64,000 bases of DNA from Diadema setosum (lineage: Eukaryota; Echinodermata; Echinoidea; Diadematoida; Diadematidae), in contig NC_092689.1 in assembly GCF_964275005.1 (NCBI RefSeq), positions 9,319,200 to 9,383,199 on the forward strand. The letters are read 5' to 3'. Positions 350 through 62,816 of the stretch are shown here, in pieces. Position 1 is the first letter of the stretch. Each line of letters opens with the position of its first letter. A program made the translations under genes and the position numbers. The notes under the pieces are model-generated. The model was not told where the DNA came from and did not search any database. It saw only the letters and a program-made list of their open reading frames with translations.

Positions 350-19603
<19,254 letters not shown>

Positions 19604-19651
19604 CGATGAGTCTCGGTGTGATACTGGTTCTCCTATGAGGGCATTCTCTGG

Positions 19652-21462
19652 GGGTGCACGTCACGAGACCGCCACCCACGAGTCATACAGCCCACGAGTT
19701 ATACAGCTCACAAGTCATACAGCCCACGAGTCATACAGCTCACAAGTCATACAGCCCACTAGTTATACAGCCCACGAGTTCGACACTAAGTAAATAAAGC
19801 CCACGAGTTCGACATCAAGTAAAATAAGCCCACGAGTGAGACAGCCCATGAGTTCGACACTCACGCTTAAAAGGCTCACGAGACCGACACTATGCAAACA
19901 AAGCCAACGAGACCGACACTACACGCTTAAAAGGCTCACGAGACCGTCGCTAGGCAAAGAAGGCCCACGAGACCGACAGGATGAACAGCGCCACCTATAG
20001 ACCAATTAATTGTATAGAGTGTCCAGATAATGGCATAAGGAAGATAAAATGTGAGAGATGGAAAAGGAGAGTTGCTAGGGTGTTACCCGTCAGTTGCCCT
20101 CCCTCACCAGCTGAAATGTTCAAGATCTTTAATTGCAATGTGTTTACGTGTGCGAGTGTTTGTGAAAAAGTAAACAGAATTCAGTAAAAGTGTGCATCGG
20201 ATCTTTCCACATTAACTTAAAAATGCCAAAACACCCTTGTTTCTCTTTTCGCAAAACACATATACATTTACTTTTAAAAAAATCAAATGATGTGGACATT
20301 CAGATCATCCAACTAGAAAAATAACCAGCTGTGAAACGAAGTTTACAAATAATAATAGAAATATTGCACAAAATAGTCAATGTTGCAGTGCACACCTGCT
20401 TTACATAATCTGGAGGGGGCGTCATCTGCGAAGGTGTTGATTTGATATAAATTCACAGAAAATAACGTAATCGTTTATTAAGGTAGCTTAACGATTCGGA
20501 ATAAGAAGATGCATCCATAAAAACAGATATCCTATTTCTTAAAAAACGCAATGTTTTGAGGAGAATAATTTACAAACATAAGCTACAAATCGAGGTAAAT
20601 CCCTGCGATATATCATCCGTTGAATGTCATACATTATAGTTACAGAGAAAAAAATACAAATTGAACTCTAAAACGTCTTAGCAGGTGGATAGGATATCTA
20701 ATAAGGCCTACTTAACTAGTGGAGCGAGAAAGGAAAGGGGAAAATTTACATCCTGTTCGTCTTCTAGCTAGAAATTTAGAAAGCCTATTAAATAGCACGG
20801 TGGCATTATCAAAAATCTAAAATCAAACAATGCATCGTTCTTGTCCTCTTTTATTTATTCTTCTTTTTTTTTGGGGGGGGGGGTCCATGAAGAGTACATT
20901 TTTATTTTAAAAAGTCGGTAACAATGTCACTCCCCGTAGCGTGACAGAACTGCCCCCTAAAAGCTACACGTGTAGAAATACATACTTGATGTCGTTGATA
21001 TGTAGATGGTGCCCTTCAATATTAGTTACAATCTCTCGCTCGATAGCGTGACGAAATTGCACCCGCCAGTATGAAATTTTCCCTTTCATGGAACACCCTG
21101 CACAAGGTACATACTTGTAATTGACATGAAGATGGCGCTGTTCATCCTGTCGGTCTCGTGAGCTTTCTTTCCTTGTGTCGGTCTCGTGAGCCTTCTTTGC
21201 CTGGTGTCTGTCTCGTGGGCTTTCTTTGCCTAATGTCGGTCTCGTGAGCCTCTTTTGCGTACTGTCGGTCTCGTGAACCTTTTAAGCGTAGTGTCGGTCT
21301 CATGGGCTTTCTTTGCGTGGTGTCAGTCTTGTAAGCCTTTTCTGCGTGGTGTCGAACTCATTGGCTGTATGACTCGTGAGCCGTATAACTCGTGAGCTGT
21401 ATGACTCAGGGACCTATTTTTGATGTCGGACTCGTGGACCGTATGACTCGTTGGTGAACCCG
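19652..21462. mobile_element. Foldback (TU-like) element 1 with tandem-repeat arms
   Basis: Flanked by an exact 8-bp duplication TTCTCTGG (19644-19651 and 21463-21470). Left end GGGTGCACGTCACGAG, right end CTCGTTGGTGAACCCG. The left arm (to about 20005) is about 15 tandem units: 16-bp CCCACGAGTCATACAG-type and about 30-bp CCCACGAGTTCGACACT-type with spacers. The right arm (about 21130-21462) carries the inverse units (TGTCGGTCTCGTGAGCC). Where the tandem units end, CGAGACCGACAGGATGAACA continues the inverted repeat inward. The middle (20006-21130) has no ORF of note. Long arms of short repeats with an 8-bp duplication match the design reported for sea-urchin TU elements. It starts 48 bp after the gene A stop. 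Confidence 0.85.
19793..19798 (+). promoter_or_regulatory. Candidate poly(A) signal for gene A inside a foldback element
   Basis: An AATAAA hexamer lies 190 nt after the gene A stop. The foldback element starts only 48 nt after the stop, and I see no AATAAA in those 48 nt. The gene may therefore end its transcripts in the transposon arm. Confidence 0.35.
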
Positions 21463-21731
21463 TTCTCTGGACCTGATAAACCTATGGAGAACTTGCTTTA
21501 TGTACGTGTAGTATTATCGGGGTCATCCCACGAGAGTGAAAACCAGAATTTCATACAGCCCACGAGTTCGACATTGAAATATAAACTCTATGAGTCATAC
21601 AGCCCTTGACCTCGACACTAGGTAACAACGTCACAGCACACGAGTTCGACAGATACAACACGGGTCTTAATGTGTCGGTCTCGTGGGCCTTGTTAGCTTT
21701 GTGTCGAACTCAGGAGCTGTATGACTCGTGG

Positions 21732-21910
21732 CAGTGGCGTACCGTGGGTCAAGACATTGGGGGGGCACCTCATGGCAGCAACATCAGAATTGCATAACGT
21801 AACAATACTATTAAATGCGAGCGAGCGGAGCGAGCGAGCTTGAAAATTTTGACATTTTACAGTCCCCAAACTGCCGTTTGTAGCTATATATAATAATATA
21901 TGTATGTATG

Positions 21911-21971
<61 letters not shown>

Positions 21972-24571
21972 TTGCTTTGGAAATTAAGGGGGTTGCACCG
22001 GGCGCAACTGCTGGCAGTTGCTGGCAGTTGCTGGCAGTAACATCACGAGAATGGCATAACGATTAAATGCGAGCGAGCGAAGCGAGTGAGCTTGAAAATT
22101 TTGACATTTTATAGTCCAAAAACTGCCGTTTTTAGCTATATTTTTTCGCTTTGGAAATGAAGGCGCAACTGCTGGCAGTTACTGACAGCAACATCAGGAG
22201 AATTGTATAGCGATTAAATGCGAGCGAGCGAAGCGAGCGAGCTTGAAAATTTTGACATTTTACAGTCCCAAAACTGCCGTTTGTAGCTATATTTCTTCGA
22301 TTTGGAAATTAAGGAGAGGGGGCGCACCGGGCGCAACTGCTGGCAGTTACTGACAGCAACATCAGGAGAATTGCATAACGATTAAATGCGAGCGAGGGAA
22401 GCGAGCGAGCTTGAAAATGTTGACATTTTACAGTCCCAAAACTGCCGTTTGTAGCTATATTTTTTCGCTTTGGAAATTAAGGGGAGGGCCTGGGCGCACC
22501 GGGCACAACTGCTGGCAATTACTGACAGCAACATCAGGAGAATTGCATAACGATTAAATGCGAGCGAGCGAAGCGAGCGAGCTTGAAAATTTTGACATTT
22601 TATAGTCCCAAAACTGCCGTTTTTAGCTATATTTTTTCGCTTTGGAAATTAAGGGGAGGGGGCGCACCTCGCGCAACTGCTGGCAGTTAGTTACAGCAAC
22701 ATCAGGAGAATTGCATAGCGATTAAATGCGAGCGAGCGAAGCGAGCGATCTTGAAATTTTTGACATTTTACAGTCCCATAACTGCCGTTTGTAGCTATAT
22801 TTTTTTCGATTTGAAAATTAAGGAGAGGGGGCGCACCGGGCGCACCTGCTGGCAATTACTGACAGCAACATCAGAAGAATTGCATAACGATTAAATGCGA
22901 GCGAGGGAAGCGAGCGAGCTTGAAAATTTTGACATTTTACAGTCCCAAAACTGCCGTTTGTAGCTATATTTTTTCGCTTTGAAAATTAAGGAGAGGGCCT
23001 GGGCGCACCGGGCACAACTGCTGGCAATTACTGACAGCAACATCGGGAGAATTGCATAACGATTAAATGCGAGCGAGCGAAGCGAGCGAGCTTGAAAATT
23101 TTGACATTTTATAGTCCCAAAACTGCCGTTTTTAGCTATATTTTTTCGCTTTGGAAATTAAGGGGAGGGGGCGCACCGGGCGCAACTGCTGGCAGTTACT
23201 TACAGCAACATCAGGAGAATTGCATAGCGATTAAATGCGAGCGAGCGAAGCGAGTGAGCTTGAAAATTTTGACATTTTACAGTCCCAAAACTGCCGTTTG
23301 TAGCTATATTTTTTTCGATTTGAAAATTAAGGAGAGGGGGCGCACCGGGCGCAACTGCTGGCAATTACTGACAGCAACATCAGGAGAATTGCATAACGAT
23401 TAAATGCGAGCGAGGGAAGCGAGCGGGCTTGAAAATTTTGACATTTTACAGTCCCAAAACTGCCGTTTGAAGATTAGCTATATTTTTTCGCTTTGGAAAT
23501 TAAGGAGAGGGCCTGGGCGCACCGGGCACAACTGCTGGCAATTACTGACAGCAACATCGGGAGAATTGCATAACGATTAAATGCGAGCGAGCGAAGCGAG
23601 CGAGCTTGAAATTTTTGACATTTTATAGTCCCAAAACTGCCGTTTGTAGCTATATATTTTTCGCTTTGGAAATTAAGGGGAGGGGGCGCACCGGGCGCAA
23701 CTGCTGGCAATTACTTACAGCAACATCAGGAGAATTGCATAACGATTAAATGCGAGCGAGCGAAGCGAGCGAGCGAAGCGAGCGAGCTTGAAAATTTTGA
23801 CATTAACACAGTCCAAAAACTGTCGTTTGTAGCTACATTATATATTTTTTCGCTTTGGAGGGCCTGGGCGCCCGGTGCGCCCCCTGGATCCGCCACTGGT
23901 AGTCAAGGGTGTCGGTTTATGTTTATGATTGGGGGAGGTATGACCAGCGAGGGGGCGTCGAAGTGACCAAGCGGGAGAAGGATGTCCAAAATCTGCACTT
24001 TGTATAGAGCATCCCCTAATTTGTTTGTGTTTGTGAGTGTGTGTGTTTCATATAGATGGAAAAGTTAGGAAATAGCCAAGGTCAAGTCTAATTATTGGCA
24101 ATGCAAGGCATTTTAATATAGACTAGTATGTAAAGCAACACTGCAAAATCAATGATCAAGCTTTGATAGCAAATGTGTACAACCTATCAAACATCACATT
24201 GCGCAACATTGCAGCGACTCTTTTTGCCATTCCGATGTTCTGAGTACACTGCGCACATCCTGCTTGTATTCAAAATGCCAACCAGGAATCACACTGAATC
24301 ACAATCTTTTGTCGTCTCCGGGCTTTTTGAACAATGTTTCACTATAATACCTTTTTAATTATATGGTTATAAGAAATCTTAGAAAAATATCTTTTTTCTT
24401 GATCATCCTTTCATGTCGATTTCAAAAGTAGTTCACTAACCCTTGAATTACCATTTTGGTAGGGTTTTTTTTTTCTTTTTTTTTCTTTTTTTTCTTCTTT
24501 TTTTTTTAACCAGCGGATTGGGGGGGGGCACGTGCCCCCCCCCCCCATGCCCCCCCGTAGTTACGCCACTG
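21732..24571. mobile_element. hAT-like non-autonomous DNA transposon carrying a satellite
   Basis: Left end CAGTGGCGTACCGTGGG and right end CCCCGTAGTTACGCCACTG share the inverted terminal CAGTGGCGTA. The flanks are the exact 8-bp duplication ACTCGTGG (21724-21731, 24572-24579), as expected of hAT-superfamily insertion. No transposase ORF. The inside holds the 169-bp satellite (21760-23880), then a second transposon-like end GGATCCGCCACTG near 23899, and G/C runs around CACGTG near 24532. Confidence 0.82.
21760..23880. repeat. 169-bp satellite in a three-unit higher-order array
   Basis: About 12 copies of a unit with TTAAATGCGAGCGAGCGAAG, TTGACATTTTACAGTCCC, CAAAACTGCCGTTTGTAGCT and GGGCGCACCGGGCGCAACTG. 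TTAAATGCGAG starts at about 22382, 22554, 22722, 22891, 23063, 23231, 23400, 23577 and 23746, so spacings repeat 172, 168, 169. Unit-specific variants (GGGCCTGGGCG, then GGGGAGGGGGCG, then GGAGAGGGGGCG) recur every third copy. Earlier copies (21811-22214) are irregular and hold a TATG/TA microsatellite (21897-21971). Confidence 0.9.
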
Positions 24572-24623
24572 ACTCGTGGGCTGTATTTTTTATGTCGGTC
24601 TCGTGACGTGCACCCGTATCATC

Positions 24624-25389
24624 AAGGGTCAATGACTGACTTTCCGTTCTTCTACCAAGTAACAGTAATACAAGACTTGCTACCATGATCTCTCAAGGAA
24701 GCTGTTTGTTTGGTATTTCTGTTGTTTCGTGAGGCACTGTATAATTATGATATTGTAGTACACTTGTTGGTGTCGACTACATGTTATTTGAATATGCCTC
24801 TGTCTTTATTTGTTGGTGTTTACTTGTTTTGATGAGTACTGTCAGGAAATGCTGTATCGCACCATGCCATAGGTTGTCCCTACAACCTGATTAAGAATCA
24901 CTTGCATTCGTTAACAAGGGTTCAATTCCATCTATTTTTCCTGCAAACAATTTTGTGCAACATTATCAGATACAGCTATATTTCATCAACTTAAAGAAAA
25001 AAACACAGGACGATTATGTGGAAGACATGGCAAAGAAAAGGATTGCTCTATTTATGAACAAACCAACAAGTGCTGATGGAAAAGATAGCTGAGAATGCTC
25101 TCACAGAGAAGTTATACACCATGGGAGCAGTACTGTGTTGAATTTTGAACTGGAAACAAAATTGTATTTTTCAGTGTTGTCTGTCTAGTTTATTATTACG
25201 CATTTAATGTTCATGTACATAGTTTACTTACTGTAGTTTTGTGTTTGATGTGTTTGTGTACAAAAATGTATACACGAATTTCATTTCTCTCCTCACTGTC
25301 ATGATACGCGCAAGATGATTGAATAATTCTGTAATGAACACGACTTTTAGCATCTGTGAGGAGCAAAGATATAAAAATATTGACTTTCT
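24624..25389. other. Intergenic stretch: nothing firm recognised
   Basis: AT-rich; may include the 5' part of the Tx1-like LINE that becomes recognisable at about 25390. Confidence 0.4.
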
Positions 25390-60374: not shown

Positions 60375-62657
60375 TTAACCTGGAGGAGATAGGGGCATGG
60401 GAGGACCACGGGTTATCGCTGATGGGCGGGAGGAGTCAGGGGGTGCTGAGGGATGGGGAATCCGGAGCACGTAGGGGAGTAGGACATCCATGATACCCAC
60501 ATCAGCGAAGCCATGGGTAGGAGCTCGGGGATCATCAGATGAATGTTCGGTGGGGATCATCTGGTAGAATGCACGCGAGACTCCATCATCGGGAGAGGGG
60601 GAGGGATCTCCTTCGGACCACAAACAGGACAGGCACAGGCCGTTGTGCCATGGTGGAGCCTTCCAGGTCGGGTGTGTGTCACGATCGGCGAGGCCAACGT
60701 CATCCATAGGGAGGCGGAGGCGAACAGCATTGTTGTAGGCAGGAAAACCCTCTGGTTGGATTTTGGTGACCACGCTGAAGACCACCATGAACTGGTGTTC
60801 ACTGTCTGGCGGCGTGTAGGAGGGAGAGGCATCATCAGGAGTGAGGTAGTAGCCAGGCGGAGAACCTGTAGAAGATGGTAGTTCACCCTGCAAACGAGTA
60901 CTGAGGACATCGACTGGCTGATGGGTGAATGTCGCGGTGGTCTTCTCCACACAGGCAGAACCATGACTAGCACGATGTCGATCAATGCCAAATACACGCA
61001 TGTCCATGTGGGTTGACACCTTGGGTAGAGGGACATGATCCGTGACAGGAAGAGCGTCCTCACCTGTCTGACTGGGAAGAAACTTGGAGAAACCTTGAGG
61101 TAAGGTAGCTACCACAAACTGGTACTGCTCATTGTGACTTTGAGGATCATTGTAGGTATTACACCAATTGTCAATGGGCGTGTATTGACCTTGGTTGTTA
61201 GACTGTGAGTGTATGTGTGAATTCACTTGTGGTTGATGTGAAGTGTCTGTGAATGTAATGTCAGTGTCAGCGTGAGGGTTTGTATTGCCCATGAAAATGT
61301 TTGTGCTAGACTCAGTGAAGAAGGTAACAGAGCTAGGCTCAGTGAAGGGAGGAACAGAGCTAGGCTCAGTGAAGGGAGGCACAGAGCTAGGCTCAGTAAA
61401 GGGAGGAACAGAGCTGGGCTCAGTGAAGGGAGGAACAGAGCTGGGCTCAGTGACGGGAGTAACAGAGCTAGGCTCAGTGGAGGGAGGAACAGAGCTGGGC
61501 TCAGTGAAGGGAGGAACAGAGCTGGGCTCAGTGGAGGGAGTAACAGAGCTGGGCTCAGTGGAGGGAGTAACAGAGCTAGGCTCAGTGAAGGGAGGAACAG
61601 AGCTGGGCTCAGTGAAGGGAGGAACAGAGCAGGGCTCAGTGGAGGGAGTGGCCATATTGGGACTCTCAACACCACAGACTTCAATGCCAACCACACCTGC
61701 AGGAACAAAAGTCCATGAATCACTGTCAGAATTTGTCCCATATTTCTGTTCACACTCAAACCAATCACCTTTGTCCACAGCAGTGATCTCACTCTGTCCA
61801 TCATCATAATTCAGTAACACATACAACATTACTTCATCTTCCGTATTCCCCATCTCACATTCAAACCCTGGATCCTGCACTTTTGTCTCTTTCACCATTA
61901 AGCCTACACCAACACCTTCAGGCTGTATGTTGTGTGGCTTACACTCTGCTTCAGCATCCTCTGTATTTTCCATCTCACACTCAAACTCATTGTGATCATG
62001 CGCATGTATCTCTTTCTCCATTACACTGACATGAACGGCTTGTGTGTGATGAGTGTTATGTGAATCATAGCCAGCGGATTGATCGCTGATACTGTAAGTG
62101 TACATAGTATCATCTCCAAACATAATCTGACCTTTCGAAGGACGAACAGCAATATCATTTTGCTCCATGAAATCTGCACCTGCGAGCACATCGACACCGT
62201 CATTCATCACATGATCATCTACGACGAAACCGTTAAACATCAGGTCACAGTCATTGTGGTATAATGTACACGAAACGATACCAACAATATCAAGCTCTGG
62301 AAGATCACCTGAGTGACCAAGGGGTACATCAATGTAATCCTCATATCCAGACCCATCGACAAGGATTTCTAAACCAAGCATATCAGCTGCAGTTTCACTG
62401 ATCAGACTACAGACAGAGCCACTTCGAACTTCAACCTGTATGACCTGATTATCATTCCCTTGCCCCGTAGCAGGGAAGTGTGGAGGTTCACGTTTTGTCG
62501 CGTCTGACAACGCGGATTGCTGGCCAAGGCCAACCTGCTGGCCCGCGGGACACCCCCGCTTGGGTGCCTCAGCGGCCGGGGCTGCGCGTCGCTGCATCGA
62601 CGGGGAGCCGGTGGACCCGGCCACGGCGGCGCATCGCTTTGTTGATGCAACGTGCAT
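60375..62657 (-). CDS. 760-codon ORF of the LTR element, retropepsin-like plus repeat region
   Basis: Starts about 180 nt inside the 5' repeat and ends at 60375. Residues 1-70 are Ala/Gly/Gln-rich. Residues about 72-180 resemble a clan AA aspartic protease fold (CSLISETAADMLGLEI, later DVLAGADFMEQNDIAV and KGQIMFGDD). About 181-335 is acidic with two FECEM.NTED segments. About 336-452 is a 9-residue repeat PPFTEPSSV, 13 units. The C-terminal 300 residues are Pro/Ser-rich with no known domain. No zinc knuckle, capsid or RT was recognised. The long open frame and low decay fit the youth of the element. Function unknown. Confidence 0.7.
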   Translation of the reverse strand: MHVASTKRCAAVAGSTGSPSMQRRAAPAAEAPKRGCPAGQQVGLGQQSALSDATKREPPHFPATGQGNDNQVIQVEVRSGSVCSLISETAADMLGLEILVDGSGYEDYIDVPLGHSGDLPELDIVGIVSCTLYHNDCDLMFNGFVVDDHVMNDGVDVLAGADFMEQNDIAVRPSKGQIMFGDDTMYTYSISDQSAGYDSHNTHHTQAVHVSVMEKEIHAHDHNEFECEMENTEDAEAECKPHNIQPEGVGVGLMVKETKVQDPGFECEMGNTEDEVMLYVLLNYDDGQSEITAVDKGDWFECEQKYGTNSDSDSWTFVPAGVVGIEVCGVESPNMATPSTEPCSVPPFTEPSSVPPFTEPSSVTPSTEPSSVTPSTEPSSVPPFTEPSSVPPSTEPSSVTPVTEPSSVPPFTEPSSVPPFTEPSSVPPFTEPSSVPPFTEPSSVTFFTESSTNIFMGNTNPHADTDITFTDTSHQPQVNSHIHSQSNNQGQYTPIDNWCNTYNDPQSHNEQYQFVVATLPQGFSKFLPSQTGEDALPVTDHVPLPKVSTHMDMRVFGIDRHRASHGSACVEKTTATFTHQPVDVLSTRLQGELPSSTGSPPGYYLTPDDASPSYTPPDSEHQFMVVFSVVTKIQPEGFPAYNNAVRLRLPMDDVGLADRDTHPTWKAPPWHNGLCLSCLWSEGDPSPSPDDGVSRAFYQMIPTEHSSDDPRAPTHGFADVGIMDVLLPYVLRIPHPSAPPDSSRPSAITRGPPMPLSPPG
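61303..61650. repeat. 27-bp coding minisatellite
   Basis: About 13 tandem copies of a GAACAGAGCTGGGCTCAGTG-containing 27-bp unit. It keeps all six frames open locally, which produces spurious long ORFs on both strands. Confidence 0.93.
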
Positions 62658-62816
62658 ATCACTACATGGGACTACACACTATAAATCGCCCAAATACTAT
62701 ATACGTCACCCGAATTATCACTGTAAATTACAACAGAACGCCTACTCCTGCGTATATCAGGCGAGATTCTCCTTTCTCTTGGACTAGGGTAGAGCAAATT
62801 AGGTGGCGTTAAATTC

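Follow-up and report, generated by a model that had tools for sequence, protein, structure and literature searches.

The question raised by positions 19652-21462 of this stretch of the Diadema setosum genome (64,000 nucleotides, analysed as a whole and called the window below) is whether the inverted, internally repetitive sequence found there is a foldback transposon and, if so, what kind of transposase moves it. The segment forms a complete foldback element of 1811 bp with a middle of about 1.1 kb (Table 1). As the first-pass annotation had claimed, an exact 8-bp duplication borders the element, with TTCTCTGG present at both flanks and absent elsewhere in the window on either strand. An extra base C (21462) separates the GGG of the right end from the duplication, and a one-base slip likewise occurs in some other copies of the family.

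Table 1. Coordinates of the foldback elements and their parts within the window (position 1 is the first letter of the stretch).
Feature	Position	Strand	Basis
Left copy of the 8-bp target duplication of the first element, TTCTCTGG	19644..19651	.	
A end, GGGTGCACGTCACGAG, exact family terminus	19652..19667	+	Genome-wide count of exact copies
Left (A) arm with 15 unit starts; 16-bp block on the outside, followed by 29-31-bp block	19662..19978	+	
Inner inverted segment, A side, core GACAGGATGAACAGCGCCA	19956..20015	+	Comparison of inverted pairs
Non-coding middle, common to other long-form copies	20016..21110	.	Pfam, no transposase match
Inner inverted segment, B side	21111..21170	-	Comparison of inverted pairs
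Right (B) arm with 12 unit starts (at most 2 mismatches)	21147..21452	-	
B end, diverged, CGGGTTCACCAACGAG	21447..21462	-	
Right copy of TTCTCTGG	21463..21470	.	
Second foldback of this family, B end on the left (21519), A end on the right (24615)	21519..24615	+	
Insert of 2840 bp lying within the second foldback; ends CAGTGGCG, by eye hAT-like	21732..24571	.	
Probable third foldback copy, decayed, between P450 matches	12476..12865	.	Partly by eye

The arms are composed of 16-bp units, with the consensus CCCACGAGTCATACAG, on the outside and of 29-31-bp units on the inside. Unit starts within two mismatches of three unit types number 15 in the left arm (19662 to 19966) and 12 in the right arm (21147 to 21439). 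The inverted arms and both unit sizes that had been described are likewise present, but the units are arranged in blocks rather than in strict alternation, with a single 16-bp unit seen by eye among the inner units of the left arm. Tandem Repeats Finder resolves the left arm into 6.6 copies of 16 bp (19675-19779) followed by 29-bp and 60-bp periods to 19978, and the right arm into 7.2 copies of 29 bp and 2.6 copies of 16 bp. Complementarity ranges from 70 to 89% in the longest 25 of 46 inverted pairs found between 19500 and 21600. The inner inverted segment noted previously was recovered at 82% complementarity, and its core, GACAGGATGAACAGCGCCA, recurs in the copy at locus L029, again at the inner limit of the A arm. 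The single-strand fold of a short copy (L045) has a z score of -13.9, and a search of positions 19400-24800 against Rfam gave no match. Tests against chance were made at the level of the family, through counts of dispersed copies and shuffling of duplications.

The units and ends of this element are widely dispersed. In the 912.7-Mb genome (912,680,840 bases in 102 contigs), the unit CACGAGTCATACAG has 4889 exact copies against 4 of the reversed control, while the A end GGGTGCACGTCACGAG has 1278 exact copies (control 0) and the B end GGGGTCATCCCACNAG has 1093 (control 1). In typical copies ACCGACACCCACGAGTCATACAG comes next after the A end as well as after the B end. Most of the 20 loci taken around places listed by the CACGAGTCATACAG search contain compact foldbacks, about 250-450 bp in length, and the family comprises short forms of 248-465 bp and a long form of about 1.8 kb, to which the window element belongs. 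In viral contigs the two-unit pattern had no exact match. The middle of the window element is shared with the copies at L026, L029, L058, L059, L060 and L062 and is absent from those at L057 and L061. Of 669 candidates for a 251-bp query from this middle, the best 40 comprise the window copy and 39 further places with 83-87% identity, a level of divergence which argues that the window copy is old and not a recent insertion. The window element is one old copy of a large, dispersed foldback family. A satellite without dispersed copies, named beforehand as the observation that would speak against a transposon, is excluded for the family by the dispersed units.

The 8-bp duplication seen at the window element is a property of the family. 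Duplications were scored in 55 elements, including copies (L033-L062) picked by their exact A and B ends independently of any duplication. The count leaves out L003 and L027 (the same copy as L002), L007, L008, L014, L024 (two), L025 and one cluster each of L011, L023 and L026, rows for which one end is not confidently placed, and one of two pairings at L059 and a duplicate row for the window copy were also removed. The two flanking 8-mers are identical in 20 of the 55 at fixed boundaries and in 24 with a one-base slip, and at least 7 of 8 positions match in 38 when the slip is allowed. Among 5000 shuffled pairings with slip, exact matches average 0.46 (maximum 4) and matches of at least 7 average 0.88 (maximum 6). 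Exact agreement at fixed boundaries for lengths 5 to 11 is found in 0, 0, 0, 20, 3, 0 and 0 elements, respectively. Some of the 17 elements scoring below 7 are probably wrong pairings of ends or decayed copies.

Direct proof of mobility comes from a copy at L020 (C1, about 27.853 Mb), which interrupts a transposase-like gene and is flanked by an 8-bp duplication. When its flanks are joined with a single duplication, one open frame is kept, and 10 other places in the genome match the 300-base query over 299-300 bases at 93-97% identity, with an eleventh covering query positions 52-300 at 96%. The copy that carries the foldback splits the query into 1-150 and 143-300, and the 8-bp overlap is GTCTCTAC. 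The joined-flank query has 37 matches in all, the others being weaker or partial. These paralogous uninterrupted copies are empty sites and prove directly that the family has moved. On one side of the insertion 50 amino acids of the interrupted gene match DDE_Tnp_4 at E 4.5e-4, below the curated cut-off, and the 50 amino acids on the other side have no match; its translation reads as that of a Harbinger-type gene. For the window copy itself, no other place in the genome spans the joined flanks. A candidate at C5:9219588, 74% identical over query positions 34-198, corresponds approximately to a P450 exon, does not cross the junction and was rejected.

The family shows a weak preference for its target. 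The 16 bases preceding 96 distinct A ends (100 listed of 1035 places, with 4 repeats dropped, and with G at -16 excluded by the search pattern) are enriched for G at -12 (0.38), -11 (0.50) and -8 (0.47), T at -7 (0.48), A at -2 (0.45) and C at -1 (0.45). Beyond the B side the motif is weaker, with C commonest at +3 (20 of 54) and +4 (17 of 54), by a small margin (G 16, T 14), and the seventh base of the duplication being A in 16 and T in 17 of 54. The target is thus a weak palindrome, GGnnGTnnnnACnnCC, with GTnnnnAC as the 8-bp duplication. Excerpts of PMC3276498 list GTNCGNAC for hobo and GTCCGGAC for P, both 8 bp, and describe palindromic target sites in the cut-and-paste families studied there.

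A further property of the family is that its two ends are different and, in the part of the genome covered, pair consistently A with B. On two of the 102 contigs (C1 and C2), and for exact ends only, there are 99 A and 97 B ends forming 42 convergent A-B pairs closer than 20 kb, a few ends being counted in more than one pairing. Pairs of exact ends less than 500 bp apart are A-B in 29 of 29 cases, for which the chance with interchangeable ends is about 2e-9, and below 15 kb there is no A-A pair and one B-B pair, which joins two separate elements. The arms follow the same division. Over the outer 110 bp in 24 short copies, identity is 87.8% between A arms and 87.9% between B arms, and it is 79.6% between the A and B arms of one element and 80.5% between A and B arms of different elements. 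As the two arms of an element resemble each other no better than arms drawn from separate elements, A and B arms are inherited separately and represent distinct lineages, not copies of each other. We infer that elements spread intact from sources in which the A and B arms are fixed, and not by copying from arm to arm. The same comparison argues against hairpin copying de novo and against homogenisation. That the arms are a local satellite or a hairpin made by gene conversion, with no transposon involved, is therefore hardly credible; they are tandem arrays, as such an origin would have them, but thousands of dispersed units, defined ends, 8-bp duplications and empty sites all speak against it.

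Element loci were searched for coding content. The window copy, nine further element loci and the stretch to the left of the arm at L025 together yield 89 open reading frames of at least 70 amino acids, none of which has a match to a Pfam transposase family at E 0.01. Three lone weak matches, to Pim (0.00091), RNA_polI_A34 (0.0012) and RPN2_C (0.0065), and another among the long-copy loci, to Exosortase (0.013), are not to transposases. The copies at L026 (4.1 kb) and L029 (7.4 kb) were considered as autonomous elements and rejected, having the same middle as the window element and owing their length, by eye, to nested inserts. L025, considered as a long element, was likewise rejected: its A arm has no partner and is read as a remnant, and SYVN1-family matches in two open reading frames on the left side of the arm (E 2.3e-9 and 1.3e-27) identify the stretch there as a host gene. 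An autonomous copy with matching ends, which the first-pass annotation had proposed to look for, was found neither among the ten element loci scanned nor at the transposase loci read.

The window element lies just past a P450 reading frame and in the company of related insertions. Three P450 matches in profile order (12052-12336, 18438-18770 and 19337-19603) probably belong to one gene, and the left copy of TTCTCTGG is situated 40 bp, and the start of the element 48 bp, past the stop codon (19601-19603) of the last of these reading frames. The second element starts 48 bp past the right duplication of the first, measures 249 bp without its insert and has flanks, GTATTATC (21511-21518) and GTATCATC (24616-24623), that agree at 7 of 8 positions. 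Its nested insert is bordered by an exact duplication of ACTCGTGG (21724-21731 and 24572-24579) and contains in its middle an array of repeats of about 168/340 bp (22162-23774, 4.7 copies of 340 bp). By eye, similar GCGAGCGAGC repeats are present in what seem to be nested inserts at L029 and L061, and another insert with CAGTGGCG ends and a duplication of GCTGTATG occupies a foldback arm at L061:710-2339. The flanking 8-mers of the third copy agree by eye at 5 of 8 positions. The presence of three foldback insertions, the third being probable, within about 12 kb around one gene is notable.

Several other observations concern repeats and transposase genes in general. Within the window, a reverse-transcriptase fragment at 6304-6822 (RVT_1, E 8.5e-9) is probably a retroelement remnant, and a 767-amino-acid open frame on the minus strand (60375-62678) runs over a 27-bp tandem array (61311-61648, 12.5 copies) and has no Pfam match at E 0.01. 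At L030 (C6:32190200-32199800), inverted repeats of 260 bp that are 93% alike and about 8.3 kb apart flank a MULE domain and are possibly the ends of a large Mutator-like element, the second repeat reaching the end of the stretch read. L032 carries an 857-amino-acid MULE transposase frame (3084-5657, minus strand) that is equalled in score by two other genomic places, and five Merlin/IS1595-type matches on one strand within 4.4 kb (C4:43972414-43976806) appear to form a local array.

The TU elements of sea urchin, reportedly described in Nature in 1983, are said to have long inverted arms built from repeats of about 15 bp in tandem, with outer and inner domains, variable middles and 8-bp duplications. 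The 8-bp duplication and the modular arms of the present family, with a unit here of 16 bp, agree with that structure, and the proposed match to TU is in part supported, at the level of architecture. We know of no report of unequal A and B ends for TU, and the end sequence of Galileo, a foldback-like element of the P superfamily, reportedly differs from that of the window family. Literature searches found no paper combining TU elements, sea urchin and foldback or combining Merlin, sea urchin and foldback, and the main text of an S. purpuratus repeat paper (PMC8615465) contains neither "foldback" nor "TU1". Of three unit strings searched in the literature, only the 12-mer CGAGACCGACAC was met, in five papers whose titles, on yeast, worm and mycobacterial subjects, suggest a chance occurrence.

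Characterized elements each share some of these features. Tm1 of root-knot nematodes, as described in sections of PMC3169594, resembles the family in its unlike terminal motifs, arms of 13-15-bp tandem repeats and several size classes, but has mostly 9-bp duplications, a coding member and other motifs. Galileo, in the portions of PMC3688188 available, has foldback-like arms with repeated sites that bind the DNA-binding domain of its transposase, but differs in encoding a P-type transposase. Tetris of Drosophila virilis is, in an excerpt of PMC4079207, similarly known from non-autonomous copies only, with its superfamily deduced from duplication length, although its duplications are 8-10 bp and its arm repeats 220 bp.

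Which superfamily supplies the transposase is the point on which the evidence divides, since Merlin-like GG ends and 8-bp duplications, a hobo/P-like target and a Tm1-like architecture give conflicting clues. Neither a unit array nor an A-B pair is present at the transposase loci read, which comprise three for MULE, two for P and the flanks of a single Merlin copy. On C1 and C2 the 14 transposase matches, all kinds taken together, are separated from the closest exact end by 47 kb to 1.48 Mb. A Merlin origin, in which an IS1595-like transposase cuts the ends and the element is a foldback derivative of Merlin, is tentative. Both ends start with GG (A and B begin GGG) and the duplications are 8 bp, but GG ends occur in Mutator-like elements too. 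The available part of PMC8101967 gives 5'-GG ends and 8-9-bp duplications as marks of Merlin and describes one family whose 5' and 3' ends are very different; it does not mention foldback arms. Profile searches find 35 IS1595-type matches in the genome, several in frames of 316-523 amino acids; against a Merlin source, the flanks of one of the 35 (2 x 1151 bp) lack units at up to 3 mismatches and ends at up to 4, and the 7 matches on C1 and C2 are 47-1482 kb from the nearest exact end. A hAT or P source, with the arms holding repeated transposase sites as in the P-type Galileo, is an equally tentative alternative. Elements of hAT and P type have CA-type ends, with which the GGG ends here are at odds, but GTnnnnAC resembles the hobo and P targets given above, and Galileo arms contain several binding sites for the THAP domain according to the same portions of PMC3688188. 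The genome has 52 P-type RNase-H matches, several in frames of 600-925 amino acids, and 40 matches to the hAT dimerisation domain, also from profile searches. The two P matches read (L063 and L064, of the 52) contain neither a unit at 3 or fewer mismatches nor an end at 4 or fewer, looser cut-offs giving only scattered single matches at L063, and the four P and two hAT matches on C1 and C2 are 60-765 kb from the nearest exact end (139 and 657 kb for hAT).

A Mutator-like foldback, comparable to Foldback4 and Tm1, is improbable, despite Tm1 being the closest architecture found (unlike outer motifs and 13-15-bp repeat arms in the sections of PMC3169594) and most foldback elements being thought of as Mutator in the excerpt of PMC4079207. 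Tm1 duplications are most commonly 9 bp with a range of 8-10 in the former source, and at fixed boundaries exact agreement here is over 8 bp in 20 of 55 elements and over 9 bp in 3 of 55. Three of 27 MULE matches, read with about 4-5 kb on each side, have no array and no A-B pair. With 3 mismatches allowed, single units number 1, 2 and 1 in the three loci, and with 4 allowed, sites resembling an end number 1, 0 and 2. A KDZ profile search was silent in this genome and likewise in control genomes; the Zisupton (KDZ) group has 8-bp duplications in the part of PMC12730594 available. That the source is none of Merlin, hAT, P or Mutator-like elements is conceivable, if on the whole unlikely.

Whatever the superfamily, the dispersed copies, the 8-bp duplications in most scored copies and the empty sites of another copy bear out the original call of a foldback transposon, and the family very probably consists of non-autonomous foldback transposons of the cut-and-paste DNA class, presumably moved by a transposase acting in trans. 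A transposase made elsewhere would recognise the A and B ends as an unequal pair and, by analogy with the repeats in the long arms of Galileo, may bind the arm units as a series of sites in tandem. It would then excise the element and reinsert it at staggered cuts 8 bp apart in GGnnGTnnnnACnnCC-like sites. Short and long forms would represent variants in the middle and in unit number that depend on the same mobilising source.

Foldback transposons of this kind have, to our knowledge, been known for decades without a defined transposase. A broader reading, that TU-type foldbacks constitute a lineage derived from Merlin or otherwise new, with obligatory unequal ends and arms that serve as arrays of transposase sites, is speculative and rather unlikely; if the Merlin-derived version were true, a long-orphaned foldback family would gain a transposase class and the foldback architecture would be added to Merlin. 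The separately inherited arm lineages constrain models of how foldbacks originate. What is required to recognise the mobilising element in a complete genome, and to test binding to the arm units, is provided by the exactly defined A and B ends, the 8-bp rule, the palindrome at the target and the proof from empty sites.
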